A stretch of 64,000 nt of DNA from contig AP026127.1 in the NCBI GenBank assembly GCA_030295235.1, positions 994,501 to 1,058,500 of the forward strand. Direction: 5' to 3'. Of the stretch, positions 3,086 through 59,072 are shown one piece after another (the stretch's first letter is position 1; every line of letters starts with the position of its first letter). A model generated the notes under the pieces. The model ran no database searches. It was not told the origin of the DNA and saw nothing but the letters and a program-made list of their open reading frames with translations. The position numbers and the translations under genes were made by a program. The stretch comes from Fistulifera solaris. Its lineage: Eukaryota > Bacillariophyta > Bacillariophyceae > Naviculales > Stauroneidaceae.

Positions 3086-4549
3086 ATGCCCTATTCAATC
3101 AAGCGCCTTCGCATCAAAGGTGATTTCTGTCTGTTTAATCTGCAGAATGTCGATAGTTTCGATGTCTTTGTGAGCGAAGTCAACAAGGCTTCGCGACTGT
3201 GGATCGATGACCTAAAAGTTTTTGTGAGAAGTGAGGATATACCCGCTCCTGATGGCTACATTAGAGTGAAATGCGAAATAGATCCTTACTATAGATTTGA
3301 TGAATCATCGCAGCTTGTGACATTCTACGGAAAAGATTTGGCTGCTTTGAGAACCACGATCATGACTGTTTTTAGTCTTCCGGATTCGCGAGAAGATCGA
3401 GTCATTAGGTTGCTGGGAATAACAGAAGAAGGCAGTTGTACGGACCTCATTCTTTCCCCGGAACAGCTGCAGACCCTTCTTTGCTCGCACGAGTCCCGCT
3501 CGTATAAGTTTCAACAATTCAACCTCTCAGCAGAGCAATCTGTTGTGCTAGCGAAGGAGACTGACCTGAATGGCCTCTGGTATTGCCCATTGCAGGATGA
3601 AGGTCTGGCGCTATTGAATTATGTGCAGCATCACAATGAAAGAAGAACCCTGGGTGAGTTTTGTAGTCAATTTGGTTCTGAAAAAACTTGGGAGAACATT
3701 ATCACATTCTTGGGCCAATCTCCATACCCAGTTTTCGAGGAACTTGTAATTGATCAGCACAATATTTATCACCGTGATTCGCATGTGAACGCTCGTCATG
3801 TTCGGGCGAACGTCAAGTCGTTGACGATTATGGTTGATCCTTATCTATTTCGTCATAGTGACGAATGTGAGCCGATTGTCGAGGCCCTGCGCGATGGAAG
3901 TTTTGTACCGCCCAAACTATGTTTGTGTTTTGATACACACGATCCTGTTCTGGATGAAGTTATCGAAGTGTATGAGACTGTACTAGAGGAACTGTTTGGT
4001 GCCATGTCGTCGAGTGGATGCCAATTGAAAGAGCTGCACATGCAGATAGAATTGGCCAAGCTTACTAGTACCGTTAGCGTCTTTGAACAGCACTTAATCG
4101 ATATGCTGGAAGAGAATACGAGCCTAGAGACGCTTACCATCGATAGCACCGCTGGTCCTTTACAATTTTCAGCAATGAGGGTCTTGGAAAGTGCGGAAAA
4201 GCATCCGCGTCTTCGAAAAATAGTTTTCTTGCCTCCTTATGGTCGTGAACCGCCGCCGATTGGTCAGTCCGGACAATTTCAGATGTGGCATCGCACGAAT
4301 CTTTCGCATTCTATTCAATTTGCTGATTCGTGCAAGATAAGACGCCAAGAAGGTTGCCGTGTCGTCACCAAGTTTGAGGTTGAGAAATGGCAGGATTTCG
4401 TCTTTTGTGATCGATTTGAGCTTTTACGCCAAGTGGAGGACGAAAATGTTCGCTGCCATTTGCTTGTAGAAGCTTTGGCGGATCATTCTAGTAACCCCCA
4501 GCGTGTCTATTCTCTATTGTCAAGAAATCAGGACACATTTGTAAAGTGA
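3086..4549 (+). CDS. Tandem paralogue family member 2, LRR-like unknown
   Basis: Complete 487-aa member of the tandem family. The frame is open further upstream to a GTG at 3035, but the ATG at 3086 gives an N-terminus (MPYSIKRLRIKGD) that lines up with that of the paralogue at 4895 (MSHSSKRRKTKDS), so 3086 is chosen. After a basic start come conserved blocks RLWIDDLKVFV, DGYIRVKCEID, FYGKDLAAL, LSPEQLQ and YPVFEELV, then leucine-spaced LRR-like segments (SLETLTIDS, HPRLRKIVFLPP), and a conserved C-terminus ending in a SHLLVxALADHS-like block. The product is likely soluble and its function is unknown. It sits in a same-strand tandem array with members at 1, 4895 and 6701, spaced about 0.35-1.8 kb apart. 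Confidence 0.85.
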   Translation: MPYSIKRLRIKGDFCLFNLQNVDSFDVFVSEVNKASRLWIDDLKVFVRSEDIPAPDGYIRVKCEIDPYYRFDESSQLVTFYGKDLAALRTTIMTVFSLPDSREDRVIRLLGITEEGSCTDLILSPEQLQTLLCSHESRSYKFQQFNLSAEQSVVLAKETDLNGLWYCPLQDEGLALLNYVQHHNERRTLGEFCSQFGSEKTWENIITFLGQSPYPVFEELVIDQHNIYHRDSHVNARHVRANVKSLTIMVDPYLFRHSDECEPIVEALRDGSFVPPKLCLCFDTHDPVLDEVIEVYETVLEELFGAMSSSGCQLKELHMQIELAKLTSTVSVFEQHLIDMLEENTSLETLTIDSTAGPLQFSAMRVLESAEKHPRLRKIVFLPPYGREPPPIGQSGQFQMWHRTNLSHSIQFADSCKIRRQEGCRVVTKFEVEKWQDFVFCDRFELLRQVEDENVRCHLLVEALADHSSNPQRVYSLLSRNQDTFVK

Positions 4550-4894
4550 ATAAATAAAGCAGGACCCGCAATGAATTCATGCAACTTATTCAACCTGGCA
4601 AAATGGGACGATTGAACTAGAGAACTATCCGCGGCTTTTACTCGCAAGGTTGATTTCTTCAACGACTCAAGTCGGAACCATCACGACAGGTTTTCTTCTG
4701 CACTCCGGATATGTTTCGAGAACTCCAATTCTGTACGTTTTCGATTACGGTCAATAAACCTGATATTCTTAATTATCGGTTCTCATGACGCGTTCATCTT
4801 CGTAGTCTTCGTAATTGAAAAGCAATGTAGCCGCTTGATAAAATCATAAGCATTTTGCTGATTCGAAACGGAAGCGAACTAACGTTACAATACC

Positions 4895-6309
4895 ATGTCC
4901 CATTCAAGTAAGCGTCGCAAAACGAAAGACAGCTCTTCGTTGATCGATCTGGAGCGTGTCGAGAGTCTCGATATGCTTCTGGGCGAGATAAAGCAAGACG
5001 AACAGATCTGGATTGAAAATTTTGATGTTTTCGTAACGACCGACAACACAGCATCACATGAGGATTACATCCACTTGAACTGCGATGTTGATTCCAACAC
5101 AGACTCATCAGTACTGCTAACGTTTTACAGCAAAACTCTATTGTCGTTGACGTCGACGGTAGAGGAGGTCTTATCTCTCCCTGATTTACGCCAGCAGCGA
5201 AACATCGGATTTTTGGGATCAATGGGCGAAACGTATGAGGACTTGATTTTCACGCCAGAACAACTAGAAAAAATCTTTTCGGCTCGAGAGACACGCACAT
5301 ACTCGTTCTGGTACCTCAATCTGTCTCCTGAGCAATCTGTCGTGCTTGCCGCAAAAACCAAGCTGGAGGCCATCTGGTTTTGTTCTATAAGAGACAAGGG
5401 TCTAGCACTGATAGATTGGTTAGAACACCATAATGAAGGAAGAACGCTAGGATCGTTCTCATGTCAATTTTACAATGCATGGGAGAACATCCTCGAGTTC
5501 TTGTGCCGTTCGATGTACCCTGTCTTTGATCAGATTGTCTTGGACCAGTTTCACCGGTATAGCAATATGTCTTTGACGTATGAACTCCTTGTCAGCGCAA
5601 ATGTCGGGTCGATTCTTGAGCTAATAAACCCCTATAGTTTTGTGGGCGACGACTGCAAAATATTGATTCAAAGCCTTGAAAATGGTACGCTTCGCTGTCC
5701 CAAGCTCGAATTGTGTTTCGATGCGGAAAGCTCTGAATTAGATCAGAAGCTCGACTTTTTGAAGTTGGGTTTAAGCGGTACGCTCATGCCATGTCTTCGC
5801 CCAAATGCACGTTGAAGGAACTTCATTTACAGATGGAAACGGTACGGCTCAGTGATTCGGCGGTTGTGTTCGAAAGTTACTTAGTAGCGATGCTACATGA
5901 AAACCAGAGTCTTAGCACTTTGGGAATCGACAGCCTCGTAGAACCATTGGGCTTCCCTGCAATGGGGATACTGAATGCAGCAACAGAGCATCCCAAACTC
6001 CGAACGCTGAAATTCATCTCCCCTGCCACCCTCGACCCACCAAACCCTGAAAGTTCAGAACCGTTTCAAGTGTGGGTTCGAGAAAATCTTTACCATTCTG
6101 TTCGCTTCCACAACTCGCACTTCGACACAAAGTACAACAAAGACCAATGGCAGGACTGCATCTTTTTCAGTCGATGTAGTCTTCTTCACAACGTACCGGA
6201 CGAACGGATACGTTCATACCTGCTTGTCGCTTTACTTGCAAATCAGCAACACTCTGTGCATCGAGTTCGTTTCCTTCTGTCATGGAATCGCGACGTGTTT
6301 ACGAAGTAA
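4895..6309 (+). CDS. Tandem paralogue family member 3, one apparent frameshift
   Basis: The ATG at 4895 opens a frame matching members 2 and 4 for about 300 residues. It then loses register at about 5765-5790, and the match resumes in the next frame at MSSPKCTLKELHLQ and runs to TAA at 6309. Compared with members 1, 2 and 4, one base is missing in this interval; the span (1415 nt) plus one is exactly 472 codons. Either the copy is a very recent pseudogene or the base was lost in assembly, which I favour because similar single-base losses recur in unrelated genes of this window. The rest of the sequence is as well conserved as its intact neighbours. Confidence 0.75.
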
Positions 6310-6700
6310 ATGCAAAGGATGAAAACTTAACGAAGTGTTACGCGTCGTCCCGTACTCCAGGTACATCATAGAAATTGACCGTGCAGTGCACTCTTTAAAT
6401 GTTGCAACGTTGTATGGTGAAAACCATGAGGTTACATTCCAATCGCCTAGTGTGGAAAACGCATGCCATTCCGAGCGTATGTTGCACTTCAAGATTCTTC
6501 CGTTCGGAAGGATGATTTTCAAGTGTTCGCAAAAGGCGTTGAATCTTTCTGAAGGAATCATTCCGGAAACAAAGAACTCTGTTGTGGTGACGGTTCTCAT
6601 CTTTGTTTACTTTCCAAAAACATGGTTGAGGCTTTGAAAATGTTCTTTTGAGCCATCCTTCAACGCTAATTATTCTAAAAGAGAAAAGAACACAATTTTC

Positions 6701-8125
6701 ATGATGCTGCAATTCGGGACGAGTTTTATGTTGCCGTGCGATGATTGTTTAGTTGACTTGGAATCAGTTCAAACTTTTGACGCGTTCATTAGTGCGGTCA
6801 ACAAAACAAATCGATTGTGGATCAGAGACGTCAACGTGTTTATCACAACTCACAATTGCTCATCTTATGATGGATACATCCAATTTAAATGCAATATAGA
6901 TTCTGACAAGCATTTGACACCATCGCATACCATAAGGTTTTGCGGCAAGGACGTGACATCGCTAACTTCCATCATCGAAAGTATCTTGTGTCTTCCTGAC
7001 ATGAAGTTAGAACGTTCCATTGCATTTTCAGGTGCCAGTGAGGACTACGAGGACTTGATCCTTACACCGGAGCAGTTGCACCGCATTTTCGATGCACATG
7101 AATCCCGTTCATACTCATTCTGGTATCTCAATCTTTCTCCTGAGCAATCAGTCGTCCTTGCAGCCAAAACGAATATGGAGGGTATTTGGTTTTGTTCACT
7201 AAGCGACAAGGGTCAGGCTTTGGTGCACTGGCTTGAAAATCATAATGAACAAAGAACGCTAGGGTCGTTCTCGTGTCAGTATTATGGTGCCTGGGAGAAT
7301 ATTCTCGAATTTACATGCCGCTCGTCGTACCCAGTCTTCAACCAGATCGTGTACGACCAGTTCTATGTAATCAACAGCGATCCGTACCGATATTCACTTC
7401 TTGTCAACGCAAATGTCAATTCGATATCGGTCTTAGTGAACCCCTATAGTTTTGCGAACGGAGAATGCGACGTACTTCTTCATGCTCTTGGCAACGGAAC
7501 TATGGTATCCCCCAAAATAGAGTTTGACTTTGATGCGGACAGCTCCGAACTCGACGAGAGACTCGAGCTGTTCGAGATTGGCCTTCACGCCCTGTTTGCA
7601 GCAATTTCTTTGCCTGGATGCACCTTGAAAGAACTCGATTTGAAAATGGAAACGGTTCGGCTCAGCAGGTCTGCAATTGTTTTTGAAGAGCACATTATCG
7701 ACATGTTGCAACAGAACAAACACCTGGAGACGTTGGGTCTCAACTGCACCGTAGCACCGTTGCAATTTCCCGCAATGGGAATCATGAATGCCGCGGCGCA
7801 GCATCCGTGTCTTAGGAAACTGATATTCATTCCTCCACCCCATTTGGAGCCGCCCGCAGTGGAATCCTTTTCACCCTTTCCAGTGTGGATTCAGAGCCAC
7901 CTGGACCATTGTATTCAATTCCATGATTGGGGACGCAACAGCGTCAAACAGCAAACGGAAAAGTGGCAGAATTATGTCTTTCTCAGTCGCTTCGCGCTCT
8001 TGCAACAGGTCAACGACGAACGGATCAGGTCTCATTTACTGGTCATGGCCTTGTCAAATCATTCATCTGCGCCGCAGAATGTCTATTTTCTCTTGTCTTG
8101 GAATGTAGATGCTTTTGCAAAGTAA
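6701..8125 (+). CDS. Tandem paralogue family member 4, LRR-like unknown
   Basis: Complete 474-aa member starting at the first ATG (6701; a second ATG follows directly) and ending at TAA 8123-8125. The N-terminal 20 residues differ from members 2 and 3 and lack their basic stretch, so the exact start is less certain. The body is closest to member 3: both share the block SFWYLNLSPEQSVVLAAKT and RTLGSFSCQ. That closeness suggests members 3 and 4 are the youngest duplicates of the array. The gene is convergent with the minus-strand gene ending at 8149, with a gap of only 23 bp. The function is not recognised. Confidence 0.85.
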   Translation: MMLQFGTSFMLPCDDCLVDLESVQTFDAFISAVNKTNRLWIRDVNVFITTHNCSSYDGYIQFKCNIDSDKHLTPSHTIRFCGKDVTSLTSIIESILCLPDMKLERSIAFSGASEDYEDLILTPEQLHRIFDAHESRSYSFWYLNLSPEQSVVLAAKTNMEGIWFCSLSDKGQALVHWLENHNEQRTLGSFSCQYYGAWENILEFTCRSSYPVFNQIVYDQFYVINSDPYRYSLLVNANVNSISVLVNPYSFANGECDVLLHALGNGTMVSPKIEFDFDADSSELDERLELFEIGLHALFAAISLPGCTLKELDLKMETVRLSRSAIVFEEHIIDMLQQNKHLETLGLNCTVAPLQFPAMGIMNAAAQHPCLRKLIFIPPPHLEPPAVESFSPFPVWIQSHLDHCIQFHDWGRNSVKQQTEKWQNYVFLSRFALLQQVNDERIRSHLLVMALSNHSSAPQNVYFLLSWNVDAFAK

Positions 8126-20357: not shown

Positions 20358-21953
20358 ATGGTTCTCCTACGATCCCAAGGACGTATTGCCTTCGATCACG
20401 TCCTCGATGTACTTTTGGACTGTGCCAATTCTCCGGGCCTTAAACTGTCCCTTGTTTCTCGTGGCTACACTACGCTTCCCAAACTGCTCTGTATCGACTA
20501 TGCTGTTATCGACTCCCTTACCTACGACGAAAAACCCGACGGTGCCGATGATAGTACTCCAGTCACGGTTCCAGTACCGCAAGCTGATAGGGACATGCTC
20601 AAGATGTTTTTCAAGTACATTGCCGACCGTTATCATCAGGGTAACCCTATCAATGATGATTGGACGTCGATTACTGCTGAAGAGTTCGATTCCTTCTGTG
20701 TACGGGGAGACATTATTGGTTCACGCAGCGGATACTCTCCTGCCCATACACCACGTCCTCCTGTGTATACCGGCAGTACGAAAACCCCTATGTCCCCTGC
20801 AGATGCCTTCCGCCGTGGCATCAAGCGCGATCCTTCACTCTTTCCTACACTCAAGAATGAAAGTTACAATGACTCTTGGCATCGGTCATTCGTGACTCAA
20901 GCTCGCGCCCAAAGTGTCAGTGACGTACTTGATGATCAGTACGTGCCTACTACTGACGATGAGAAGGAACTCTTCGACGAAAAGCAGAAGTACATGTACG
21001 CAGTCCTTGAAGCTACTGTCCTTACTGACCAAGGCAAGGCCATTGTTCGCAAGTACGAGTCTACCTACGATGCACAACGCGTTTATGCTGAGTTGAAGCG
21101 CCATCACCTACAATCTACTAACGCGCAAATGGAATCTTCCAGCATACTCTCGTACATCACTTCGGCCAAACTTGGTGACGGTACATGGAACGGTACTACC
21201 AATGCGTTCATCCTGAACTGGCAAGATCAAGTACGACGCTATGAACAGATTTCCGGCGAAGTCATTTCCGATAAACAGAAACGTGCATTACTTGAAAACG
21301 CGGTTAACGGCATTTCTGATCTACGACAAGTCAAGAGTACCATTGACATTGACACTGCGAAAACGGGAAAAGACGCTACCTTCGAGCAGTACTGTACTCT
21401 TCTCCTCGCCCAAAGTTCCCGTTACGATGCACAGTTTTCTGCGAGACCACGCCGTAAGGTTCTGTACCATGACGTTGTTCAGGATGACCCGTATGACGAT
21501 GACGACGCTGGTTACGAGTACGACATCGATTCTTCTGTGTCTGAGCTGTACATCAACGCTGCTGCCCGTCGTCCTGCACGCAATCGTCCACCCGGTATTT
21601 CTTCGACTCCACGCACTACTGGACCGCGTATGGCTCGTGAACGCTGGATGCAACTGAGCGACAACGCACGTACGATTTGGGACACTATCTCAGATAAGGA
21701 TAAAGCCATTATTTTGGGCCTGTCGTCTAACCCCAACTATACTGGTTCTGGCAGTCATCATGGTCCCCATTCGTCGAGTCGCAGTGTGCACTTCCATGAG
21801 TCTCTTCCTCCCGAGCCCGATCCTGATCCTGACCCTACGGTCCCTAGTGATGAGTTCCACGATGCACCACAAGACATTGATCCTTCCCAAGAAGCCGATT
21901 CGACACTTTTGGTCAATGCTGCACGTTCTGATTCGGCGACTCGATCCCCGTGA
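20358..21953 (+). CDS. Younger copia gag-like ORF
   Basis: 531-aa open frame from ATG 20358. It is a Ty1/copia-type gag-region protein, rich in acidic residues near the end (PPEPDPDPDP) and without a clear CCHC zinc knuckle. It would form the particle shell in this family. It overlaps the start of the pol frame, which is read in another frame; LTR elements commonly use recoding for this. Confidence 0.8.
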   Translation: MVLLRSQGRIAFDHVLDVLLDCANSPGLKLSLVSRGYTTLPKLLCIDYAVIDSLTYDEKPDGADDSTPVTVPVPQADRDMLKMFFKYIADRYHQGNPINDDWTSITAEEFDSFCVRGDIIGSRSGYSPAHTPRPPVYTGSTKTPMSPADAFRRGIKRDPSLFPTLKNESYNDSWHRSFVTQARAQSVSDVLDDQYVPTTDDEKELFDEKQKYMYAVLEATVLTDQGKAIVRKYESTYDAQRVYAELKRHHLQSTNAQMESSSILSYITSAKLGDGTWNGTTNAFILNWQDQVRRYEQISGEVISDKQKRALLENAVNGISDLRQVKSTIDIDTAKTGKDATFEQYCTLLLAQSSRYDAQFSARPRRKVLYHDVVQDDPYDDDDAGYEYDIDSSVSELYINAAARRPARNRPPGISSTPRTTGPRMARERWMQLSDNARTIWDTISDKDKAIILGLSSNPNYTGSGSHHGPHSSSRSVHFHESLPPEPDPDPDPTVPSDEFHDAPQDIDPSQEADSTLLVNAARSDSATRSP

Positions 21954-24900
21954 CATTCGCCGTATCTTGTCACAACCTTCTTCGAATCGTGCCAATCGTA
22001 CACGTAGTGCAAATGTGCACATCATGTACCGTGTCTCGAATGGACATACGGCATCGTCTCTTGCTTCTTTGGTCGACCGTGGTGCTAACGGTGGGGTTGC
22101 TGGTTGTGACGTCAGGGTCATTGACAAGGCTTTTCCGCATCGTCGCGTAGATATCCAAGGCATTGATAACCACCAAATGACTGACCTCGAAATTGGTACT
22201 GTCGGTGGTGTCGTTCATACCCACAAAGGACCGGTCATTGCCATCTTCCATCAGTACGCTCTCTATGGAAAAGGCCCTACGATACACGCTGCTGGACAAA
22301 TCGAACACTACAAGAATTTTGTGGACGATAAGTCTTCAGTCGTGGGTGGTACTCAATGCATTACTACGCTTGATGGTTATGTTATTCCGCTCAACATTCA
22401 GCAAGGTCTGGCACGTCTTCCTATTCGTCCATTTACCGATACTGAATGGGACAGTTTGCCGCATGTCTTTATGACTTGTGACGTTGAGTGGGACCCGACA
22501 GTACTAGATCAAACCATTGACGAGGATGATACAGCCTGGTATGATGCAGTCAGTACAGAAGCCGAGCTCTCGCCGCAACCATCTTTCGATGCCTTTGGTG
22601 ACTATCGTTTCCGCGTCAATGTCCAACATGCGTTTGTCCATGTCCCTTTTGACGATGACATCGACAACGTGATTGACACGTGCATTTACACTGTCCATGA
22701 AGTCGATAGTACTACGGCACGTGCAGGTGACCTAGTTCCTCCTGAGTTACCTCCTGGCGAGCCTCCCCCCATTCTTCCGGTCACTCCACGTACCTTGTCC
22801 AAACGTTCTCCCGACTTCGCGCGTCTACGTCCTTATTTTGGCTGGATTTCCGCCGACTTGGTCCAGTTGACCCTCGAACACACCACGCAATACGCACGTC
22901 TTCCTACGGGTACTCTTTTGAAACGTGCTTTCAAGTCTGCCAATCCGGCACTCAACGTTCGTCGCCGTTCTGAGGCAGTTGCGTGTGACATTGTGTACTC
23001 CGACACTCCTGCTATTGATAATGGTGCAACTTCCGCTGTACTCTTTTGCGGTCGTGATACTTACGTCACCGATATCTACGGTATCAAAACCGATAAGCAA
23101 TTTATCAATACACTCGAGGACAATATACGCGAACGGGGAGCCCCTACACGTTTGATCAGTGACCGCGCCCAAGTCGAAATCAGCAAAGCCGTTGTCAACC
23201 TTCTTCGTACCTTTTGTATTGATTCTTGGCAGCGTGAACCCAAGAACCAGCAACAGAACTTTGCTGAGCGACGTTTCCAGACTGTCAAGACCACTACGAA
23301 CCGCATTCTTGATCGTACTGGCGCTCCGGCTTCGACTTGGCTCCTTTGTCTACAATACGTATGCTTCCTACTCAACCATACGTATAACGAGACACTCAAG
23401 ACCGTTCCGATTCAGGCGCTTACAGGGTCTACTCCTGATGTCAGTGTCCTTCTCCGCTTCTACTTCTGGCAGAAGGTACTCTATATGCGTGACGATTATG
23501 ACTTCCCTTCTGAGTCTCCTGAGGCGATGGGCCATATTGTCGGCATCTCCGAGCACGTTGGACCTGCCCTCTGCTGGAAAATACTTACTTCGGATACTCA
23601 GAAAGTTATTTTCCGTTCTCAGGTCCGTCCGTACACTGACGACGATCCTAATTTGCGCGCCGCTCCGACTGACGGGGAGAGTTCGCATCCGCCCACACCA
23701 GTTGTACAATCGCGTACACCTGTTTTCGAAGTGGATCCTGATGCTACAGACGATATCAGTCCTCCCGACGCTGCAGTCCGTCCGAATGTACCCATTATTG
23801 ACGTTGAAGATCTTATCGGACGTACATTCTTAATGGATGAGGAATCGGATGGTCAGAGGTTCCGCGCACGCATCTCCCATCTTGTTGAAGATCACGAAGC
23901 CGCTGTACGCAATGATCCTACACGAGTCAAATTTGTCTGTGACATTACTGAGAAGGATACGGAAGCCATTTTCACATACAACGAGATCATGGAATATTTG
24001 AACCGTGACTCAGAAGCTCCACTGTGGAAATTCAAACGTATTATTTCTCACCAAGGTCCACTAGGCACTACTGACCGTGAGTACAAAGGATGCAGCTACA
24101 ATGTGCTGGTAGAGTGGGAGAACGGGGAGATTACCGCAGAACCGTTGAATGTTATTGCGGCGGATGACCCAGTAACGTGCGCCATTTATGCCAAGGACAA
24201 CAATTTGTTAGATATGCCTGGATGGAAACGCTTCAAGTCAATTGCAAAGAGGCATAAGAAGTTCGTCCGTATGATCAACCAGTCAAAGCTGCGCTCCTAC
24301 AATTCAGCGCCACGCTATAAGTACGGATTCGAAATTCCTCGCAATTATGCCCATGCAATGCGTCTCGATGAACAGAACAAGAACACTAAGTGGAATGACG
24401 CAGTGGCACTCGAGTTACTTCAGATCGAAGAGTACCACACTTTTAAGGACTTGGGGCATAAGTCGACAGTTAAGCCTCCCCCAGGATACAAGCGAATTCG
24501 CGTTCACTTGGTATTCGATGTCAAGCACGATGGACGGCACAAGGCAAGATTGGTTGCGGATGGTCACCTTACTGAAGTGCCTACCGAGTCCGTATACTCC
24601 GGTGTAGTGAGTCTTCGTGGATTCCGATTGGTCACCTTCCTGGCAGAACTTAACGATTTGAAGTTCTGGGCTACTGATATAGGTAATGCCTACTTAGAAG
24701 CCTATACTTCAGAGCGTGTTTACATTGAAGCCGGGCCGGAATTCGGTAAGCTCGAAGGCCATATACTGTTGATCAGTAAGGCACTTTACGGGCTACGCAC
24801 CAGTAGCTGCAGATGGCATGATAGGATCTCCGATGTACTACGAGAATTGGGTTTCCAGTCCTGCAAGGCTGAACCGGACATATGGTTACGCCCGAGTGGT

Positions 24901-26016
24901 GATGTGTACGAGTATGTCGCTGTGTACGTCGACGATCTTGCACTAGCGATGAAGGACCCTGACGCTTTCGTCAAAATTTTGACGGATAAGTACAATTTCA
25001 AGCTTAAGGGTACTGGTCCTATCACCTTCCATCTGGGAATGGATTTCTCCAGAGATCCTGATGGTACTTTGTGCATGTCCCCAAGAAAGTACATCGAGAA
25101 GATCATAGCCAACTACGAACGGCTATTCGGAGAGTCACCCAAGCAAGTAGTATCTTCTCCGCTTGAGAAGGGTGATCACCCGGAAATGGACACTTCTCCT
25201 TTCCTCGACGAAAAGGGCATAAGAGATTATCAGTCGCTGATTGGAGCTTTACAATGGCTCATCAGTATCGGTCGATTCGACATTATGACCGCTGTCATGT
25301 CTCTCTCTTCTTTTCGCGCAGCACCGAGAAAGGGGCATATGGATCGTGTTAAACGGATCTATGGGTATGTGTCTAAAATGCGTCATGCCTCCATACGCTT
25401 TCGAGTTGAAGAACCAGACTTCTCCGATCTCCCGAATTTTGAGTACGAATGGTCGCGCTCTGTGTACGGTGATGTCAAGGAAGCGGAACCCAAAGATGCG
25501 CCCAAACCTCTTGGGAACTTCGTCACATCAGTACACTTTGTAGATGCGAATCTTATGCACTGCATGGCTACGGGGAGATCTGTGACTGGAATTCTTCACC
25601 TTCTTAACAAGACCCCTATCGAGTGGTACTCCAAGAAGCAGGCAACTGTTGAGACTGCTACTTATGGTTCCGAATTTATTGCAGCGAGAACGTGCGTTGA
25701 GCAGATCATCGATCTCCGCAATACACTGCGATATTTAGGGGTACCGATTCGCGAGAAGGCCTACATGTTTGGGGATAATGAGTCTGTCGTCAACAGTGCT
25801 ACCATGGTACACGCAAAGCTACACAAGAGACATACTATGCTCTCTTTTCACCGTGTACGCGAGGCTATTCGCGTCAGGAATGGTTGCATTCTTGCATATT
25901 CCCGGGAGATGAACCCAGCTGATATTCTCAGCAAACATTGGGGTTATTCGCAGATATGGGATCGTTTGAAGGCGATACTTTTCTGGACTGAAGACACCGC
26001 AGAACTGAAGAACTGA
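21760..26016 (+). CDS. Younger copia pol polyprotein
   Basis: Long open frame (1418 codons from the first in-frame ATG; the start is not certain because pol is probably made by recoding from gag). Order: protease-like segment (near 22075), integrase core (about 22960-23520), a chromo-like segment (YNVLVEWENGEITAEPLNVI, near 24100), reverse transcriptase (about 24480-25150, with YVDD near 24924), and RNase H (about 25530-25950, with EWYSKKQATVETATYGSEF). The order integrase before reverse transcriptase defines Ty1/copia. The element looks whole. Confidence 0.92.
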   Translation: MVPIRRVAVCTSMSLFLPSPILILTLRSLVMSSTMHHKTLILPKKPIRHFWSMLHVLIRRLDPRDIRRILSQPSSNRANRTRSANVHIMYRVSNGHTASSLASLVDRGANGGVAGCDVRVIDKAFPHRRVDIQGIDNHQMTDLEIGTVGGVVHTHKGPVIAIFHQYALYGKGPTIHAAGQIEHYKNFVDDKSSVVGGTQCITTLDGYVIPLNIQQGLARLPIRPFTDTEWDSLPHVFMTCDVEWDPTVLDQTIDEDDTAWYDAVSTEAELSPQPSFDAFGDYRFRVNVQHAFVHVPFDDDIDNVIDTCIYTVHEVDSTTARAGDLVPPELPPGEPPPILPVTPRTLSKRSPDFARLRPYFGWISADLVQLTLEHTTQYARLPTGTLLKRAFKSANPALNVRRRSEAVACDIVYSDTPAIDNGATSAVLFCGRDTYVTDIYGIKTDKQFINTLEDNIRERGAPTRLISDRAQVEISKAVVNLLRTFCIDSWQREPKNQQQNFAERRFQTVKTTTNRILDRTGAPASTWLLCLQYVCFLLNHTYNETLKTVPIQALTGSTPDVSVLLRFYFWQKVLYMRDDYDFPSESPEAMGHIVGISEHVGPALCWKILTSDTQKVIFRSQVRPYTDDDPNLRAAPTDGESSHPPTPVVQSRTPVFEVDPDATDDISPPDAAVRPNVPIIDVEDLIGRTFLMDEESDGQRFRARISHLVEDHEAAVRNDPTRVKFVCDITEKDTEAIFTYNEIMEYLNRDSEAPLWKFKRIISHQGPLGTTDREYKGCSYNVLVEWENGEITAEPLNVIAADDPVTCAIYAKDNNLLDMPGWKRFKSIAKRHKKFVRMINQSKLRSYNSAPRYKYGFEIPRNYAHAMRLDEQNKNTKWNDAVALELLQIEEYHTFKDLGHKSTVKPPPGYKRIRVHLVFDVKHDGRHKARLVADGHLTEVPTESVYSGVVSLRGFRLVTFLAELNDLKFWATDIGNAYLEAYTSERVYIEAGPEFGKLEGHILLISKALYGLRTSSCRWHDRISDVLRELGFQSCKAEPDIWLRPSGDVYEYVAVYVDDLALAMKDPDAFVKILTDKYNFKLKGTGPITFHLGMDFSRDPDGTLCMSPRKYIEKIIANYERLFGESPKQVVSSPLEKGDHPEMDTSPFLDEKGIRDYQSLIGALQWLISIGRFDIMTAVMSLSSFRAAPRKGHMDRVKRIYGYVSKMRHASIRFRVEEPDFSDLPNFEYEWSRSVYGDVKEAEPKDAPKPLGNFVTSVHFVDANLMHCMATGRSVTGILHLLNKTPIEWYSKKQATVETATYGSEFIAARTCVEQIIDLRNTLRYLGVPIREKAYMFGDNESVVNSATMVHAKLHKRHTMLSFHRVREAIRVRNGCILAYSREMNPADILSKHWGYSQIWDRLKAILFWTEDTAELKN

Positions 26017-39594: not shown

Positions 39595-42450
39595 ATGACA
39601 GCCGGAGACCTTGAGAGCGGCGCAAAAGGCAAGATATTCGATCCAACGGACGCTGACACCGTCCTTGGTAGCCATGGCGTCGTGTACATCGAAACGGAAG
39701 ATACGGCGAATGTTGAGAGTCAGGTCGATGCCTGGATTGAAAACAATACAGTTGTTGTTTTTGGCAAGTCGTGGTGCCCGTTCTGCAAGGACGTCATTGA
39801 GTTTTTGTCGCAGCGTCTCAATGTTGTCACGCACGTCGTCAACATGGATTCGATGGACGGCGGTGCGAAGATTGCTACGTACGTTCAAGAGAAGACGCAG
39901 CACAAGACCGTCCCTGTCGTTTTTATTAATGGAAAATTCAGAGGTGGCTGTGAAGATGTCAAGTCGAAGCAAGAACAGCTCGAAAAGGAATTGCTGATGC
40001 ATCGCAACATGACGCATGAAGAAATCAAGAATTTGGATGCTGCCAAGTTGCCCCTCGAGTACCGATCGACGGCTCGTAATCCTCTCTTTTGGTTTCCCAA
40101 TACGGTCAACAATCGCGTTGTTCGACTCACGGGCTTTCAAGTCTTTGTTTGTGCGGTCCTTTCGGCAGTCTTTCACACGGAGCTGTGGGGTCGCTATCTC
40201 GCCGTCTTTTTGTTGGTGGATTTCGGTCTCCGTATGACCGTCGGAAGCTTTCTTTCACCGCTCGGAATGATTGCTACGGTCGTAGCGAGTCCGTTTGCTC
40301 CCACCTTCCGACCGGGTGCCCCCAAGCAGTTCGCTTCCTTCTGTGGTCTCTTCTTTTCGCTCTTGGCCACCATCTTTTACTTTGCGGAATTCGAGTATCA
40401 CGAAGTCGTCGGTGCTATTTGGATTGCCATGCTCGCGGGTGCGTCCGGTTTGGAAGCCTTCTGTGACTTTTGTCTCGGTTGTGTCTTTTTCGGACTTGGT
40501 ATTCAGTTCAGGCTCCTTCCCGACGACTGTTACCGCATTCATACGCAAACGATTCGGGAAACGCAAGAGTCGTATGACTACAAGATGACCAATCAAGATG
40601 TTCCTGCTCCGGTTGCGATCGATACCAATCCCTCTGATCCGACTGCGCTCAAGTACAAGGTCAAGACCGACGAGTGGACGAAGAACGACTTTGATCCGAT
40701 CAAGCACATGCAAGTCGGCTACTTCGCCATGCCTCTGTCGCTCTCGGGTCTCGCCGTGGCATTCAAGATGGCCTCGATGAAAGGAATGCAAGATTTGGTT
40801 GTACAAGAAGAATACTACTACGTTATCAGCTCGCTCGCCGCTGGTACTATTGCAGTTTTCGTTGGCTTGTACGGTCTGCGCTTGGCCATGTATCCACACA
40901 AGTGTTGGACGGAATGGGTGAGTCCTCTGCATTCCAACAGCTTTGGAGCTATCACGATCACATTGCTGCTCTTTGCTTTCTTGGTACATGATGACTTGGA
41001 TGCAGAAAATAATACAACCGGTCGCGTCTTGTTCTGGTGTGGTGCTATCGGACATACTTTCATCACAGTCGCCAAGACGGGAGAGTGGATTGGTCGACGC
41101 CTAGAGACCGAACACATTCATGCGCATTGGATGATTGTTCCAGTTGGTTTGGCTGTGGCTTCGTTGGTGGCTTCCACTATCGAACCGTTTGCGACGGAGG
41201 AAAATTCCAACTCGAAAGGGAACCTGATGCTGGCTCGGTTTTTCCAGTCGTTTGCCTCGCTCATGTGGATTGCTCTGTTCGCCGTCACCTTCTTCAAAAC
41301 GGTAATTGATCACAATAGCGACAACCGTGTTCGCCATGGCGTTTGGATCTGGTTGGCTGCCCCGTGTATGCTCGGCCTCTCGCAGTACAACATTTGCATT
41401 CAAGAGAATATCGTGAACTCGACATGCGAGGGTGACTTTGCGACGTATTACTTTATCGGCTTATTCTTTCTCATGGGACTTTGCTATGCTGGTCTCTCCG
41501 AGTACGCTTTCTTTGGTCAGGACACCTTTAACTTTGGCTACTGGATCGAGTGCTTTGCCTTGGATGCTTTGGCTGCTTGTGCTTGTTTGTTCTACGCACA
41601 AAATGGCTGGCGTATTAGTCAAAATTTGCAGTGGCTTGCTCTGTGTGCGGCTGCAATCTGTAACTTTTGTGCCCTCTGCCACACCATTGTTGGAATCATC
41701 AACCAGCGCGGTGTATTCACTCCAGAGGTGAAATGGGGACCTCTTTCGTTTATGAAATTGACACATGAAGCTTTTCGGGGAAATATCGAAACGCTGAAGG
41801 ACTATCTCAGGTCTTCCAACCTGGTAACAGAAGAAGGTCGCCACTGCGTCGATATGTTTGCTGTTCATTTCCAGCGATTCCGAATCTTGCATGAAGAACA
41901 CGCCAAGCACGAAGACGAGATTATTTTCAAAACTTTTAATGATTTCTTCCCCGAGCACGCCAAAAAGTGGAACGACGATCACAGCGAAGACCACGCCCAT
42001 TTGGATCGCTGGGTGAACCTAGCTAATAAGCTGCTCGACACCTCGCTCACACTTGCCGAACGTGAAAGTGCGCTTACTCAGTTGCAGCAGCAGATCACTC
42101 CATGGTTTGCTCACTTCGAAGGGCATTTGCGCGGCGAGGAAGATCATTTGAACCCAGTCGGACGCAAATATCTTCCCTTGGCTGTTATGAAAGAAATGTC
42201 GCGCAAGACATGGGAAATCACCCCGGCCGATCGCTGGGAGGTCATCATTCCTTTCATCGTGAACAATTTGCCCCGCCACGAGCAACGCGTTCGCTATTTG
42301 AAGGTTCTGACCTGGAGCTTGCAAGAGCGCGCGCAGCAAATTGGTGCCATTGTGTACCGTCACACTGATGCTGTGATGTGGGAACGTTTGACCCGTGAAG
42401 TCCCGGAGATTATCCCCCGGGGTGTAGCAGGATGGCGCCGTTATTACTAA
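39595..42450 (+). CDS. Glutaredoxin - DUF4395 - SLAC1/TehA-like channel - hemerythrin fusion
   Basis: Intact 951-aa protein; ATG 39595 is chosen because the upstream extension starts with TTG. Four modules: (1) glutaredoxin, residues about 50-135, with active site C61-P-F-C64, TVPVVFINGK (cis-Pro loop) and GGCED; (2) DUF4395, about 160-310, four membrane spans, starting FWFPNTVNNRVVRLTGFQV and ending LEAFCDFCLGC (C290, C293, C296); (3) a TDT/SLAC1-like transporter, about 368-705, roughly ten spans, with VGYFAMPLSLSGLA, YPHKCWTEWVSPL and AHWMIVPVGLAVA; (4) a hemerythrin-like HHE domain, about 716-870, with H724, H758, HEEH near 766-769, H772, H800, H840/H843 and H851. TDT proteins carry C4-dicarboxylates, sulphite, nitrate or chloride; HHE domains bind a di-iron centre that senses O2, NO or redox state. 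The membrane location and a redox-gated anion channel role are inferences. Confidence 0.9.
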   Translation: MTAGDLESGAKGKIFDPTDADTVLGSHGVVYIETEDTANVESQVDAWIENNTVVVFGKSWCPFCKDVIEFLSQRLNVVTHVVNMDSMDGGAKIATYVQEKTQHKTVPVVFINGKFRGGCEDVKSKQEQLEKELLMHRNMTHEEIKNLDAAKLPLEYRSTARNPLFWFPNTVNNRVVRLTGFQVFVCAVLSAVFHTELWGRYLAVFLLVDFGLRMTVGSFLSPLGMIATVVASPFAPTFRPGAPKQFASFCGLFFSLLATIFYFAEFEYHEVVGAIWIAMLAGASGLEAFCDFCLGCVFFGLGIQFRLLPDDCYRIHTQTIRETQESYDYKMTNQDVPAPVAIDTNPSDPTALKYKVKTDEWTKNDFDPIKHMQVGYFAMPLSLSGLAVAFKMASMKGMQDLVVQEEYYYVISSLAAGTIAVFVGLYGLRLAMYPHKCWTEWVSPLHSNSFGAITITLLLFAFLVHDDLDAENNTTGRVLFWCGAIGHTFITVAKTGEWIGRRLETEHIHAHWMIVPVGLAVASLVASTIEPFATEENSNSKGNLMLARFFQSFASLMWIALFAVTFFKTVIDHNSDNRVRHGVWIWLAAPCMLGLSQYNICIQENIVNSTCEGDFATYYFIGLFFLMGLCYAGLSEYAFFGQDTFNFGYWIECFALDALAACACLFYAQNGWRISQNLQWLALCAAAICNFCALCHTIVGIINQRGVFTPEVKWGPLSFMKLTHEAFRGNIETLKDYLRSSNLVTEEGRHCVDMFAVHFQRFRILHEEHAKHEDEIIFKTFNDFFPEHAKKWNDDHSEDHAHLDRWVNLANKLLDTSLTLAERESALTQLQQQITPWFAHFEGHLRGEEDHLNPVGRKYLPLAVMKEMSRKTWEITPADRWEVIIPFIVNNLPRHEQRVRYLKVLTWSLQERAQQIGAIVYRHTDAVMWERLTREVPEIIPRGVAGWRRYY

Positions 42451-43085
42451 GGCGACATACTTCTAAGTTTTCTTACATAATTGCACATTCAATCTTCCAG
42501 CTGGCGACATCGTACATCATAATTAAATTCTTGTTTGTTTGCTCGCCGACAGCCTTGATTATTTCAAAACGGAAAAACTCGTGTTTGATAGCGACGCCAC
42601 TTAACCACCGCTCATCAACAAGGCCGCATCGACCGCACTCTATGTTTCGTCCATCATCGCCTTGCCCAACATCCATTCTCCATTCGCCAATCCGCCCATC
42701 GTGCCTCGCTTCGTTCCTTCTCCTTCTCCTTCTCCTTCGTCCCTCTCCATTCTCCACCGTTCCAGATTTCTGATTTCTGATGTAAAAAAGTCACTGGGTT
42801 GGATCTGGCACTGAGTTTGTTAAGACCTGCTGGATCGAGACATTTCCAGTGCCTACTAAATGTATGGGAAAAGACACGTAGCGTCTAAAATCCCGGCACG
42901 TCTGCGGAGTAATAATTTTATTGCTCTAGTAAGAATTACTCCGTTAGCCAAGGAAGCCACAACCCAAACGCCGCAGCGGTGAGGCTGGTTAGCATCTCCC
43001 CTCTCATTATTTATTTCCAAAGCTTCGTCCTGAAACAGCGTCGTATGTTCACATCATATTTGCCGGAATAACTTCGTTGCAAGCC
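42451..43085. other. Intergenic spacer
   Basis: About 635 bp. A CTTCTCCTTCTCCTTCTCC pyrimidine run lies near 42715-42735. The 113-codon ORF at 42432 overlaps the end of the fusion gene and is not supported. Confidence 0.5.
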
Positions 43086-43766
43086 ATGAAACCTCGAACA
43101 TCAAGTGACTTCAATAATCTTGCTATTGTGCTTTTGCAGAGCAACTGCTTTCGCCCTGCCTTAACAGCTTTCCAAGATGGAGTATTGTTGCAGCAAACGA
43201 AATGTTTGCCTTCGCAACGACGTTATTCTGCGGAAGCCGTGCCTCCACCGATGGCGCGGGCAGTATCCTCTGAAGCCATTGACCTGAATGATATTTGTAG
43301 AATGCCTTGTGCACGATCGTTGCTTGAATTTCTGAAAGTCAAGACGTCCCGGAAAATATTACTTCTTGTTCGACTACCAAAGAAGTCACCATTTGCTAAA
43401 GCAGTCCTATATTACAATCAGGCAATGGCACATCTTGCCGCATCGTGGGCGAATAACAAGGATGATGTTGAACAGTGCAACGCCGAAGCAAAACATTTCC
43501 TTGAACTTTCATCCGTTACTTTACAAAAATGGCACGCAAATCTCACTAAGGTGAATGGTGGGCATTCGAGTCTGATGAGGGCAACTTTGATGCTACTTAT
43601 GTTAGTGACATACACACTTTACCGATCGACGGGCGTCCCGTCACTCAATCGCCGAATTCATGCCATACAAGCTCTTATATCCTCCAACGATTCACAGACC
43701 AGCACTCTGGGTGCTGGAGTAGCGCCGCTCAGTGCCAGTCAATCAAACACAGCCGTAACCGTCTAA
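43086..43766 (+). CDS. TPR-like diatom family, member 1
   Basis: 226 aa from ATG 43086 (MKPRTSSDFNNLAIVLLQSN). Family blocks: DFNNLAIVLLQ then ALTAFQDGV near the start (a TPR-like helix pair), a Ser/Ala-rich linker (RYSAEAVPPP), LLLVRLPKKSPFAKAVLYYN followed by QAMAHLAASW (second TPR-like pair), a helical ELSSVTLQKWHANL, and a hydrophobic LMLLMLVTYTLYR helix. The paralogues at 44388 (same strand, next gene) and 52745 (minus) share the same order. The protein is probably helical and may bind other proteins; I do not know its function. No targeting signal is seen. Confidence 0.8.
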   Translation: MKPRTSSDFNNLAIVLLQSNCFRPALTAFQDGVLLQQTKCLPSQRRYSAEAVPPPMARAVSSEAIDLNDICRMPCARSLLEFLKVKTSRKILLLVRLPKKSPFAKAVLYYNQAMAHLAASWANNKDDVEQCNAEAKHFLELSSVTLQKWHANLTKVNGGHSSLMRATLMLLMLVTYTLYRSTGVPSLNRRIHAIQALISSNDSQTSTLGAGVAPLSASQSNTAVTV

Positions 43767-44387
43767 TTGCTCACTGGTTTCAATGGAGCCATCACAGACG
43801 AACAAAAACTCGACAATTAAATAAATATTCATACAGTTTACTGCATAAAGACTTGAATTAATTCTACATGAGGTCTTTGTCATGCGTAGCGACTCTTTTT
43901 CCTTTCATTTTTCTATCGAAGGGTAACATTTCATCACTTTTCCAGCTTTCGCGAGCGCGGAAACGGAAAAAGTGAAGCGGGGTGGGTCACAACTGACGTC
44001 AGTAAGAAGTCTCGGGAGAGCAAATTCTCACTGGATTACGAGATAATACTTTTTAGTCTATAGTGGAACGTTCGTGGTACTGAAGAGTTTTCTCGTCCTA
44101 TGTTCTCTACCTATTTCTCCGCCCCCTCCGCCGACTACGACAAAAAGACCGCGCTTTGACGCTTGGCCATTGGCTATCATAGTATATGCGATGAAAGCCA
44201 TTCGAAAAGGAAGAAACTATAAAACAAAAATACTCCCACTTAATAACAATAAACATACTACGCCTTGCTTGTCAGAGCAATAGGAAAGACGGCTTCTATT
44301 TCAGAGTCGTGTTGATTTTCGACAAGAACGTACACGGCCAACGACATCTCGGACCTTGTTCGCTTGTATATTCTGACACAAAGAACC
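43767..44387. other. Spacer between two TPR-like paralogues
   Basis: About 620 bp, no gene. It contains a perfect CRE palindrome at 43994-44001 (annotated separately). Confidence 0.5.
43994..44001. promoter_or_regulatory. CRE-type palindrome TGACGTCA
   Basis: Perfect bZIP/CREB site, 387 bp upstream of the ATG at 44388. TGACGT half-sites act as CO2/cAMP-responsive elements in the P. tricornutum PtCA1 promoter. Function here is inferred. Confidence 0.4.
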
Positions 44388-45098
44388 ATGAAATCGCGAA
44401 GCGATATGAACAACCGAGGAATCGTGTTGTTACAAAGCAATTGCATTGTCGGCGCCTGTCAAGCTTTCGAGGAAGCGGCTAGGAAAACGACAGACGTTCC
44501 TCGCTCTCGAAGGACAACAACCGAGGCATTACCACACCGTTCTGTGAATTCTTCGTCTCATGTTATAGATTTCGATACCTTGGAAAATTGTGCCGACGCG
44601 AAAGCTTTGTTACTGCTGATGCACCAGGCTTCGATTGTTTTAATTCGATTGCCTCGCGAATGTCCGTTTACGGCTGCTGTCGTTCCGTATAACGCAGCCA
44701 TGTCACAATTATCTTTGGCTGCAACTTGTGTTTTGAATACGATCAAGGCGGAAGAATGCCGGGAAGAAGCGAAACGATGGCTTGATCAGTCGCAACAAAA
44801 ACTACAAAAGTGGTGTACTATATTGGCCCGTAAATGCTCCATTCCGCAATCTACTCGTGAGAAGAATATGGAATTATCTGCATTGCTGCGCACAGCCGTT
44901 CTCTTGCAATTGTGGGTTACTGTCACACTCTGTCGTCTGTGCCCGAGTAAGGAGCGACACGAAGAAATTCAACAAATACAACTATTTTTACTGAATCATG
45001 ATCAGAGGCAGCGACTTCAACAAGGCGTGCGGATAGAAGCTTCTCCCATTTCGCCTTCGTCTACAAAGGCGCAAGCGCCCAGCAAAACTACGGCGTGA
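44388..45098 (+). CDS. TPR-like diatom family, member 2
   Basis: 236 aa from ATG 44388; the frame opens upstream only with a TTG. It starts MKSRSDMNNRGIVLLQSNC, then ACQAFEEAARKTTDVPRSR, TTEALPHRS, VLIRLPRECPFTAAVVPYN and AAMSQLSLAATC, SQQKLQKWC, and a LLQLWVTVTLC helix, matching member 1 block by block. The C-terminus (EASPISPSSTKAQAPS) is disordered. It lies downstream of member 1 on the same strand, consistent with tandem duplication. The function is unknown. Confidence 0.8.
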   Translation: MKSRSDMNNRGIVLLQSNCIVGACQAFEEAARKTTDVPRSRRTTTEALPHRSVNSSSHVIDFDTLENCADAKALLLLMHQASIVLIRLPRECPFTAAVVPYNAAMSQLSLAATCVLNTIKAEECREEAKRWLDQSQQKLQKWCTILARKCSIPQSTREKNMELSALLRTAVLLQLWVTVTLCRLCPSKERHEEIQQIQLFLLNHDQRQRLQQGVRIEASPISPSSTKAQAPSKTTA

Positions 45099-52073: not shown

Positions 52074-52745
52074 TCATATTTCCACTCGCTCCAACGCGTG
52101 AGTACCTGAGGACTCCAAGGATTGCAGACTATTGCTTAAGTCGTGATTCGCCAGGTAATGGTGAATGCCTAGTATTTCATTTTGAACCGGCGCGTCGAAA
52201 AACACCCGACGTTTCGAAAGAACGAGCAGTCGTAGCATTAAACAGGCTCGCAATATTTCCGGCTTCTCTTTCATTTTCGGAACCAGAGCGACGGTCCATT
52301 GCTTCAAAAGCAAATCAACTTCCTCCAGCGTCGATTTCGCGTGTTCGGCTTTGTCAACAATTATTTGTAAATTGCTGCCAGTTCTCGATTCGGCAAAATA
52401 CACCATCGCCAAATTATACAAGATGACCGCGGGCGTGAAGGGACATTTGGGCATCAACCGAATCACCACCAGCGTGCGAGGGAAGCTGAGAACACGAACG
52501 CGCTCCATAAATGTCCGCGAGCTGGTGGCCGTGGTTATTTCTGAAAACTCCATCACCGCCCACGAAAGTGCGGCTCCGTTCCGACGAGGTGGGGCTTCGG
52601 TCGAATATACTCGGCTTTTCGGCAGTTGTTTCGTTTTTACCATCGTTTCCGCGTCTTCGAGTGCTTTTCTCGCAGGGATCAGACAGTGACTCTCCAAAAG
52701 CATCAATCCGAGGTTATTAAAGTCACTGGCACGCTGCGGACCCAT
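52074..52745 (-). CDS. TPR-like diatom family, member 3
   Basis: 223 aa. The frame is open up to 52952, but ATG 52745 (MGPQRASDFNNLGLMLLESH) aligns with the starts of the paralogues at 43086 and 44388, so it is used. Blocks: NNLGLMLLESHCLIPARKAL, SRVYSTEAPPRR, LVVIRLMPKCPFTPAVILYN, AMVYFAESRTG, LLKQWTVALVP, then HHYLANHDLSNSLQSLESS. The C-terminal NHD block is shared with member 2. It is on the opposite strand and about 7 kb from the pair, so it was moved or inverted after duplication. The function is unknown. Confidence 0.8.
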   Translation of the reverse strand: MGPQRASDFNNLGLMLLESHCLIPARKALEDAETMVKTKQLPKSRVYSTEAPPRRNGAALSWAVMEFSEITTATSSRTFMERVRVLSFPRTLVVIRLMPKCPFTPAVILYNLAMVYFAESRTGSNLQIIVDKAEHAKSTLEEVDLLLKQWTVALVPKMKEKPEILRACLMLRLLVLSKRRVFFDAPVQNEILGIHHYLANHDLSNSLQSLESSGTHALERVEI

Positions 52746-54016
52746 GTTTCTGGTGAAGCCTTCTGCTGCGAACGACGGAAATAATTCGTCAGCACTGCCT
52801 CGACAGAAATGAATCAGCTTGTTGAATCGCACAAAGGCACTTGGGAGATGTAGCGTGCACCATTCAGTCATGTGGTTCAGAGAGATACAACGGCATGCTG
52901 TTGCGTTTCGCCTTTCAACACAAACAAGCAGATTGCCTTGACCACTTGTCACTTGTCACCCTCCGTTTTCGTTTTGCTCCTTGTTCGCGTTGCGCGTTTG
53001 ACGATTGAGGGGCGTAGATGTTGAGATCGAAACGGAGGGAAAGACGGGATTGTGGGATTGGATCAAATTGCAAGTGTGAGTACAGATATGCTTTACTGGA
53101 ATGTTCTTCGTGCCACAGCTTCTAATTGCAATGTTCAACCGGTTTTGACGTTGATTTACGCATAGGTAAGTTAGCAGATGACACGGGACACCGCGACACT
53201 ATGCGTTATAATGATGACTTTGAGGCATATCAAGATCCCCATAATAATTTTTCATTGGAGACATAAGCAAGAGCACAGGGCTAAAAGACCACATCCAATA
53301 TCTAAACACCTAAAAACACTAGAAAGTTCTTGCTATTAAAAACCGTTCCAAGTTCCAAGACATGAGTATTAAGCACTTCCGTTCTGGGCTTGAGGGCTTA
53401 ATAGTCTGACTATATCCCGTATTCCGTACAACGTGATTTGCAGAATGCCGCTTCCTACTTTCTGCCGTTCAGTGGTTTCAAGAGTGAACAAGATACATTT
53501 CACGACATTTCCAGTCTTGAGTCTTCATTATTTCCCGTTTGCCTAAAATGCCTCGTTATAATGAGCTAATGCGATTAATGATGGCTAAAGTGAAAGCTAC
53601 CTGGTACAGTAAAAGTGAACAAGTTACCAAGTTACAAGAAGTTGTTAGTTCGATAGTTCGATGGTTGCTGATTGCTGATGCTTCTTGAATGGCTAAAAAG
53701 TGGCCAATGGTAAAAGCAATCAATCATGGATTGGACTTTATTCCATTAACCATCACGGACTACGGAAAAATTGTTTGCATGTTCCTGCGAACTCTTGCAT
53801 GTTCACCTTTCGTTCCTAACATTCGGCAAATTCTGGAGAATTCGCTGCGTATCGATTGTGCACCGACCGTCACAACTTGCGACCGTCATGAAACAGGTAA
53901 CATACAATATTGTATCTGCAATGATTGGATGAAGCACTTTGATAATATGTATGAATAGTTTACAATTAGCTAATAAGTTTTCTATTGAAACAAACAAGGG
54001 AATCGCTGCATGTTCT
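52746..54016. other. Intergenic region, one doubtful ORF
   Basis: About 1.27 kb. An 89-codon plus ORF from ATG 53689 (MAKKWPMVKAINHGLDFI) has six Cys in its second half but no recognised family; treat as unproven. Otherwise no feature seen. Confidence 0.4.
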
Positions 54017-57845: not shown

Positions 57846-59072
57846 ATGAAATTTGGAAAGAATCTCCGGGAGAAAACGTTGAAAGAATGGCGCTTCTATG
57901 CTGTCGATTACAAAGCGCTCAAGAAGACGATCAAGAAAGATGACAGCGAGCAATTCTTTCGTCTCCTCCATGAATCCGAAGTCAAGTTATCCAGATTCTA
58001 TCATGATAGAGAATCATGGGCATTTGATTACATGCAGACTCTCCTTGAGCGCGTACAAGCACTTCGCGAGGCTATGGATTCCCAGCAAGACGCGCCCACA
58101 GAGTCCGAGTCTTCTTCCTCCGAGTCGTCCGTGGCGTCTTCGGAAGAAGACAATGCTTCGGTGGCATCCTCCGTCGAAATGGATCGCGGCTTCACCAAGC
58201 TTTGCGTAAAAGCTCAATCGTTTGGTACGAAACAGGCCTGGTTGAAAGAGGAATACCGACGGATGGGAAGCAGCAAACAATTCAAATCATTCATTTACGC
58301 AAAGAAGTCGCTTGCTACTTTTGATCGCGAACTCGGCCTGCTGATTGAATTCCTCGAACTCAACAAAACAGCCTTCAGCAAGATTTTGAAGAAGTTTGAC
58401 AAGTGCACTGGATCAGCAATGCGCGAAGAAAAGATGAAAGGCATTTTGGAAGCAAACGCATTCTTGTCCGGAAAGACTCTATCCGAGTTGAAAGACCGCG
58501 TCGGTCTTTTGATTGACGAAGTGAATAGTTTGAAGCCTCAGCTTCCGGAAGGATGGGAGAATCGAAAAGTATACACCATTGGCTGCTTCGACTTGTTTCA
58601 TCGAGGTCACGAAAATGTATTGCTCTCGCTCCGTGAGTTCGGGTATTATGTGGTCGCTGGAATCCACGACGACGACTCCTACTTCAAACTGAAAAACAAG
58701 GACGCGATTGAGGATCTTGAAACTCGTATCAATAATGTCAAACCATTTGTTGATCAAATTTTTGTTATACCGTCCACGGATCCGCTGATTTATATCAAAG
58801 CCATGGTTAGCGAGCAAGATATTGCCACTGGCTCTTGCTGCTACGCTCGTGGAGACGATATGTTGGACTTCCCTGGTCGCGAATGGGTAGAAACCGTCAT
58901 GCCGGTCCATTTCGTTCCTCGGACGGAAGCCTGCAGCAGCACTTTGATTCGTACTATTTACCACGCCGGAGACGAGGAGTTGCGCAAGAAAGCAGCTTTT
59001 GCAAAAACGCGATACGACGGGAAGCCTATCGATGAAGACGGAAATGTCCTCAACTTGAAAGTTGCGGCGTAG
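57846..59072 (+). CDS. SPX domain - cytidylyltransferase fusion
   Basis: Intact 408-aa protein. The N-terminal ~200 residues are an SPX domain: MKFGKNLREKTLKEWRFYAV, then DYKALKKTIKK (basic inositol-pyrophosphate-binding helix), an acidic Ser-rich insert at about 80-110, and FDRELGLLIEFLELNKTAFS then KILKKFDK. The C-terminal part is a CTP-transfer nucleotidyltransferase: VYTIGCFDLFHRGHENVL with the HxGH site at 252-255, then VPRTEACSSTLI (the RTxGxST-type motif). SPX domains sense phosphate status through inositol pyrophosphates; this enzyme fold joins CMP to phosphocholine, phosphoethanolamine or glycerol-3-phosphate. Phosphate-controlled lipid head-group synthesis is an attractive inference; the substrate is not known. 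No membrane span. Confidence 0.9.
   Translation: MKFGKNLREKTLKEWRFYAVDYKALKKTIKKDDSEQFFRLLHESEVKLSRFYHDRESWAFDYMQTLLERVQALREAMDSQQDAPTESESSSSESSVASSEEDNASVASSVEMDRGFTKLCVKAQSFGTKQAWLKEEYRRMGSSKQFKSFIYAKKSLATFDRELGLLIEFLELNKTAFSKILKKFDKCTGSAMREEKMKGILEANAFLSGKTLSELKDRVGLLIDEVNSLKPQLPEGWENRKVYTIGCFDLFHRGHENVLLSLREFGYYVVAGIHDDDSYFKLKNKDAIEDLETRINNVKPFVDQIFVIPSTDPLIYIKAMVSEQDIATGSCCYARGDDMLDFPGREWVETVMPVHFVPRTEACSSTLIRTIYHAGDEELRKKAAFAKTRYDGKPIDEDGNVLNLKVAA

Follow-up and report, generated by a model that had tools for sequence, protein, structure and literature searches.

The locus examined here raises the question of what a single polypeptide might do if it joined a glutaredoxin, a DUF4395 membrane domain, a SLAC1/TDT anion channel and a hemerythrin-like C-terminus, and of whether such a chain exists at all. 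It lies in a window of 64,000 nucleotides (the whole stretch of DNA analysed) from the diatom Fistulifera solaris. The first-pass annotation, made from the letters alone, had described an intact ORF of 951 aa, and this description was upheld: the frame opens with ATG and contains no internal stop, and when the bases of the window were shuffled 20 times, no ATG-started ORF exceeded 194 aa. No paralogue of the ORF was found within the window (best other match E 0.92), and neither Rfam nor a tRNA scan gave a match anywhere in the window. The features discussed below are collected in Table 1.

Table 1. Features of the four-module ORF, with positions numbered from the first letter of the window.
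Feature	Position	Strand	Basis
Glutaredoxin - DUF4395 - SLAC1 - hemerythrin-like single ORF	39595..42450	+	ORF reading; frame 0 preferred in 9/9 segments
Glutaredoxin domain, aa 53-115	39751..39939	+	PF00462 E 1.5e-12; best PDB glutaredoxin E 5.9e-12
DUF4395 membrane domain, aa 171-301	40105..40497	+	PF14340 E 4.7e-20
CDFCLGC motif, aa 290-296; conserved part C293-L-G-C296	40462..40482	+	Aligned to bacterial DUF4395 proteins from plasmids
SLAC1/TDT anion-channel domain, aa 371-692	40705..41670	+	PF03595 E 7.4e-24; TehA structures
F654 codon; F654 aligns to TehA F262, the Phe that closes the pore in this family	41554..41556	+	Alignment to TehA
Hemerythrin-like domain, aa 717-854; presumed ligands H724, H769, E773, H796, H844, E848	41743..42156	+	PF01814 24.1 bits; alignments; Foldseek
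C-terminal helical extension, aa 871-951	42205..42447	+	Alignment; helices in low-confidence model

Elsewhere in the window, an ORF at 57846-59072 (+) carries an SPX domain (E 1.8e-20) and, C-terminal to it, a cytidylyltransferase-like domain (E 6.6e-11), a pairing that could possibly link phosphate sensing to phospholipid synthesis. Three further ORFs, at 43077-43766 (+), 44364-45098 (+) and 52074-52952 (-), appear related by eye through an early D-(F/M)-N-N ... LL-(Q/E)-S-x-C stretch; the first two matched no Pfam family at E<=0.001. Four consecutive ORFs at 39-8125 (+) also look alike, and two overlapping long ORFs at 20358-26016 (+) resemble a copia-type retroelement, both by eye; such an element, together with the gene content, would suit a diatom-like host.

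The identity of the N-terminal module is the most straightforward. The CPFC glutaredoxin noted at first reading is confirmed by a PF00462 score of 47.9 bits against a cut-off of 22.9 for the whole protein, and by intact CPFC (aa 61-64, with C61 and C64), TVP (105-107) and, just past the domain, GGC (117-119); we take a dithiol site, TVP and GG to be the motifs of a glutaredoxin. The equivalog cut-off of the NCBIfam eukaryotic glutaredoxin TIGR02180 was not reached (72.6 vs 87.25 bits). When the whole protein was searched against plasmids, the two matches were both glutaredoxins and nothing else was returned, and against phages the glutaredoxin part drew three weak matches, of which two were grxC.

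The DUF4395 domain with its CDFCLGC motif also proved correct, with a Pfam score of 72.7 bits against a cut-off of 24.5 for the whole protein. Plasmid searches yielded six records that carry DUF4395 (Microbacterium, Thiothrix, Sulfurovum, Methylobacterium, Tsukamurella and Spirosoma), two of which were matched, weakly (E 0.03 and 3), by the ORF's own domain. The Microbacterium protein was excluded from the alignment and profile, as its listed frame exits the family before the cysteine motif. A profile of the other five scored 54.1 bits on the ORF, compared with a best of 9.5 among 2000 shuffles of aa 151-320. The part of the motif kept in the relatives is C-x-G-C (C293, G295 and C296 here), common to all five intact-frame proteins, with which the ORF also shares R, (S/A)P and K-x-F-A positions and an E-(A/S) upstream of the cysteines. 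Two differences set the ORF apart. None of the six plasmid relatives is fused to a glutaredoxin, SLAC1 or HHE domain, and the C-terminal C-x4-C that is in frame in three of the six (Methylobacterium, Thiothrix and Sulfurovum) is absent from the ORF; at this position Tsukamurella has C-x2-C and Spirosoma no pair. The fused glutaredoxin dithiol may perhaps substitute for the bacterial C-terminal pair. Among 14 control genomes, DUF4395 was present in four and hemerythrin in seven.

The channel module covers positions 1-322 of the 331-position SLAC1 profile and scores 84.9 bits against a cut-off of 27.9. Structures of Haemophilus influenzae TehA were matched among PDB sequences both by aa 360-951 (E 8.4e-5 to 1.8e-3) and by the whole protein (E 1.5e-4 to 2.7e-3); the SLAC1 part alone (aa 369-711) matched nothing in the PDB at E<=0.1, and the longer query restored TehA. 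Against plasmids, the same part returned six records, none significant (best E 0.3). F654 aligns with the TehA pore phenylalanine, whose number, 262, was counted back from a printed chain end at 278 (the TehA residue is 276 in the numbering of PMC6765260), and also with an F of a Morganella SLAC1 protein. PMC6765260 describes this phenylalanine as conserved in all SLAC1 transporters examined there, as shutting the pore, and as essential in Schizosaccharomyces pombe Mae1. Relative to known SLAC1/TDT channels (TehA, plant SLAC1, Mae1 and Ssu1), the ORF has a near-full-length SLAC1 domain, aligns with TehA and keeps the pore-closing Phe, but it adds an N-terminal glutaredoxin-DUF4395 portion and a C-terminal hemerythrin-like one, and falls far short of the NCBIfam tdt subfamily (TIGR00816; 75.1 vs a cut-off of 237.25 bits).

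The C-terminus required a closer look. Hemerythrins bind their metal through the set H ... HxxxE ... H ... HxxxE, and the His-rich HHE domain of the first-pass annotation is supported by presumed ligands, by a profile of relatives and by a fold search, while its Pfam score is just under the cut-off. Scanned with the whole protein, hemerythrin gave no Pfam match at E<=1; scanned as a separate piece in three cuts, the C-terminus scored 22.7, 23.9 and 24.1 bits (E 1.5e-4 to 5.5e-5), below the 25.3-bit gathering cut-off of PF01814. Of the four families proposed for the domain search, then, PF00462, PF14340 and PF03595 were found above their cut-offs, which makes these three modules certain, and PF01814 just under. 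The piece at 42175-42447 gave no Pfam match, the only NCBIfam match to the C-terminus was the di-iron repair protein RIC (E 0.035), and hemerythrin was not found in the PDB sequence search. The HHE part had one plasmid match, at E 5 and under an unrelated gene, which was discarded.

Alignment is more informative. In a single BLASTP comparison (E 0.001), a Spirosoma hemerythrin-domain protein is identical to the ORF at H724, H769, E773, H796, H800, H844 and E848. The six presumed ligands are kept in all five aligned bacterial relatives (Spirosoma, Sinorhizobium, Rhizobium, Tistrella and one Endohaliclona, drawn from nine records; the Vibrio record, H28, and the other three from Endohaliclona, H30-H32, were omitted), with H800 in Spirosoma only, and these relatives likewise extend beyond the HHE core. 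A profile of the five scored 16.9 bits on the C-terminus and 13.6 on the whole ORF, compared with a best of 9.8 among 2000 shuffles. Structure prediction, as suggested at first reading, gave a core of four long helices at low confidence (pLDDT 64.6). FBXL5, an iron- and O2-sensing hemerythrin, supplied the chains ranked 1-7 in a Foldseek search with this model (E 0.16-1.3, none significant), with RIC, ScdA and YtfE lower; a longer single-sequence model of the C-terminus, also of low confidence (pLDDT 53.9), had no hemerythrin among the best 50 of its 289 matches. Compared with FBXL5, bacterial HHE proteins and RIC/YtfE, the ORF's version shares the ligand positions and the leading fold match but is sub-threshold in Pfam and joined to a channel. 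Overall, the case for a hemerythrin-like domain is good but formally sub-threshold.

Members of the SLAC1 family are expected to have ten transmembrane helices, and TehA has ten with both ends in the cytosol. The claim of a ten-span TDT/SLAC1 channel was right about the domain, but ten spans did not emerge from a simple hydropathy scan, which showed eight peaks over 1.2 in aa 371-700. The same scan found five peaks in DUF4395, two of them adjoining, and these counts of eight and five do not prove ten plus four helices. No hydrophobic segment precedes aa 175, and there is therefore no evident signal peptide. If SLAC1 does have ten helices with cytosolic ends and DUF4395 four, all soluble parts would face the cytosol.

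Our leading reading, offered tentatively and somewhat short of probable, is that the protein may be a cytosol-facing anion channel responsive to redox state and to iron or O2. The soluble modules flank the anion-channel domain, which is the arrangement that such a channel would need. We propose that the glutaredoxin, via glutathione and its CPFC pair, would determine the state of the thiols in the membrane CxxC of DUF4395; that the C-terminal bundle would bind a di-iron centre and change with O2, iron or oxidant; and that both control parts, on the cytosolic side, would alter the opening of a pore shut at rest by F654. The cargo would be a small anion. Sulfite is the best single guess for it, credible if unproven, since one bacterial DUF4395 gene has a sulfite exporter next to it in a row of sulfane-sulfur type (described below) and the SLAC1 family counts Ssu1, a sulfite pump of yeast, among its members. 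The redox- or gas-gated channel envisaged by the first-pass annotation is partly supported, by the modules, active residues and flanking layout found, but its presumed gas-sensing part is the one that stays sub-threshold in Pfam. A stronger version, in which the attached pore takes its control directly from two sources, a glutathione-fed thiol relay that runs from glutaredoxin to the membrane CxxC and a di-iron O2 site, so as to form a self-contained sulfur or redox unit, is a long shot.

Glutaredoxins and HHE proteins often serve in repair or iron handling. The protein could correspondingly be an ordinary anion channel whose added domains protect or stabilise it, the glutaredoxin by thiol repair and the HHE domain by scavenging iron or peroxide or by iron-dependent turnover, with no gating. 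This reading is unlikely but the best placed of the alternatives, and a diatom precedent points the same way: a hemerythrin-like/CHY gene of Phaeodactylum tricornutum is described as one of those most induced by low iron (PMC5156380). Against it, protection would hardly seem to need modules that are permanently fused to the channel on either side.

A second alternative, which we regard as rather improbable, dispenses with a gate in favour of a production line: the glutaredoxin and DUF4395 would handle persulfide or disulfide sulfur, and sulfite would leave through the SLAC1 pore as part of a sulfur-anion exporter. It draws on the gene neighbourhoods of the plasmid DUF4395 loci, all six of which were viewed, on incompletely annotated plasmids. 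On the Microbacterium plasmid (L009, 1998-5844), DUF4395 is flanked by TauE and rhodanese in a row that reads thioredoxin, metallo-beta-lactamase/rhodanese, TauE sulfite exporter, DUF4395, rhodanese. We suggest that this row may represent a system of the sulfane-sulfur oxidation and sulfite export type. A Streptomyces protein combining PDO and rhodanese is described as oxidising sulfane sulfur to sulfite, with a co-transcribed tauE as probable exporter (PMC7533328). The Thiothrix DUF4395 gene adjoins a thioredoxin-type DsbH/DsbD_N protein. The other four loci had no clear sulfur or thiol neighbour: the Methylobacterium locus includes a class-V aminotransferase as well as a gene of the cytochrome b561 type, the Tsukamurella locus a flavodoxin-domain gene, and the Spirosoma locus nirBD some 5 kb off. 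Thiothrix and Sulfurovum, whose plasmids carry DUF4395, are sulfur oxidisers. The association of DUF4395 with sulfur is nevertheless thin, because the sulfur row occurs at one of six loci and a thiol-redox neighbour at one more; furthermore, Pfam detects nothing in the ORF that is known as a sulfur-oxidising domain, and the cargo of a SLAC1 protein is not assignable from sequence alone. In favour of the exporter, PMC6765260 places the SLAC1 Pfam motif in Ssu1, which pumps sulfite in yeast.

The remaining concern is the integrity of the fusion. By codon usage, frame 0 beat frames 1 and 2 in every segment, the linkers at aa 129-170, 302-370 and 693-720 included, under a score learned from the remainder of this ORF; because the linkers favour the ORF's own coding frame, a chimaera or an unspliced join is unlikely. 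An assembly or gene-model artefact that joined neighbouring genes is accordingly rejected as highly improbable, for although the whole architecture lacks any relative in the genome contigs, viral contigs and plasmids searched, 951 codons run without a stop and the linkers at aa 302-370 and 693-720 prefer the frame of the remaining ORF.

That search for a relative, which would have been a sign of selection keeping the parts together, covered the same three collections; neither the whole protein nor its parts had a confirmed relative in genome contigs or viral contigs, the latter searched also with bacterial DUF4395 queries. A hemerythrin gene was found in one of nine plasmid records examined (Spirosoma), distant from the DUF4395 gene. 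The earlier view that the architecture had not been described agrees with the literature searched, in which titles and abstract openings, mostly of open literature, gave no published description of the four-domain arrangement. A further comparison is an algal TlpA selenoprotein in which a thioredoxin-type protein is joined to a hemerythrin domain (PMC7539508); it differs in that neither a channel nor DUF4395 is mentioned in the available part of that report. As read from its sequence, the gene joins known domains into one chain in a combination that is new.

Plant SLAC1 channels are controlled by phosphorylation of their tails; in a natural fusion with glutaredoxin and hemerythrin-like domains, anion flux would instead answer directly to glutathione, iron or oxygen. 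The fusion also offers a tangible way into DUF4395, whose family name occurs in just two papers of the literature searched, once in each. If the self-contained sulfur or redox unit were true, one polypeptide would both make or sense a sulfur anion and export it, which would give DUF4395 its first function and add a new way of controlling a channel.
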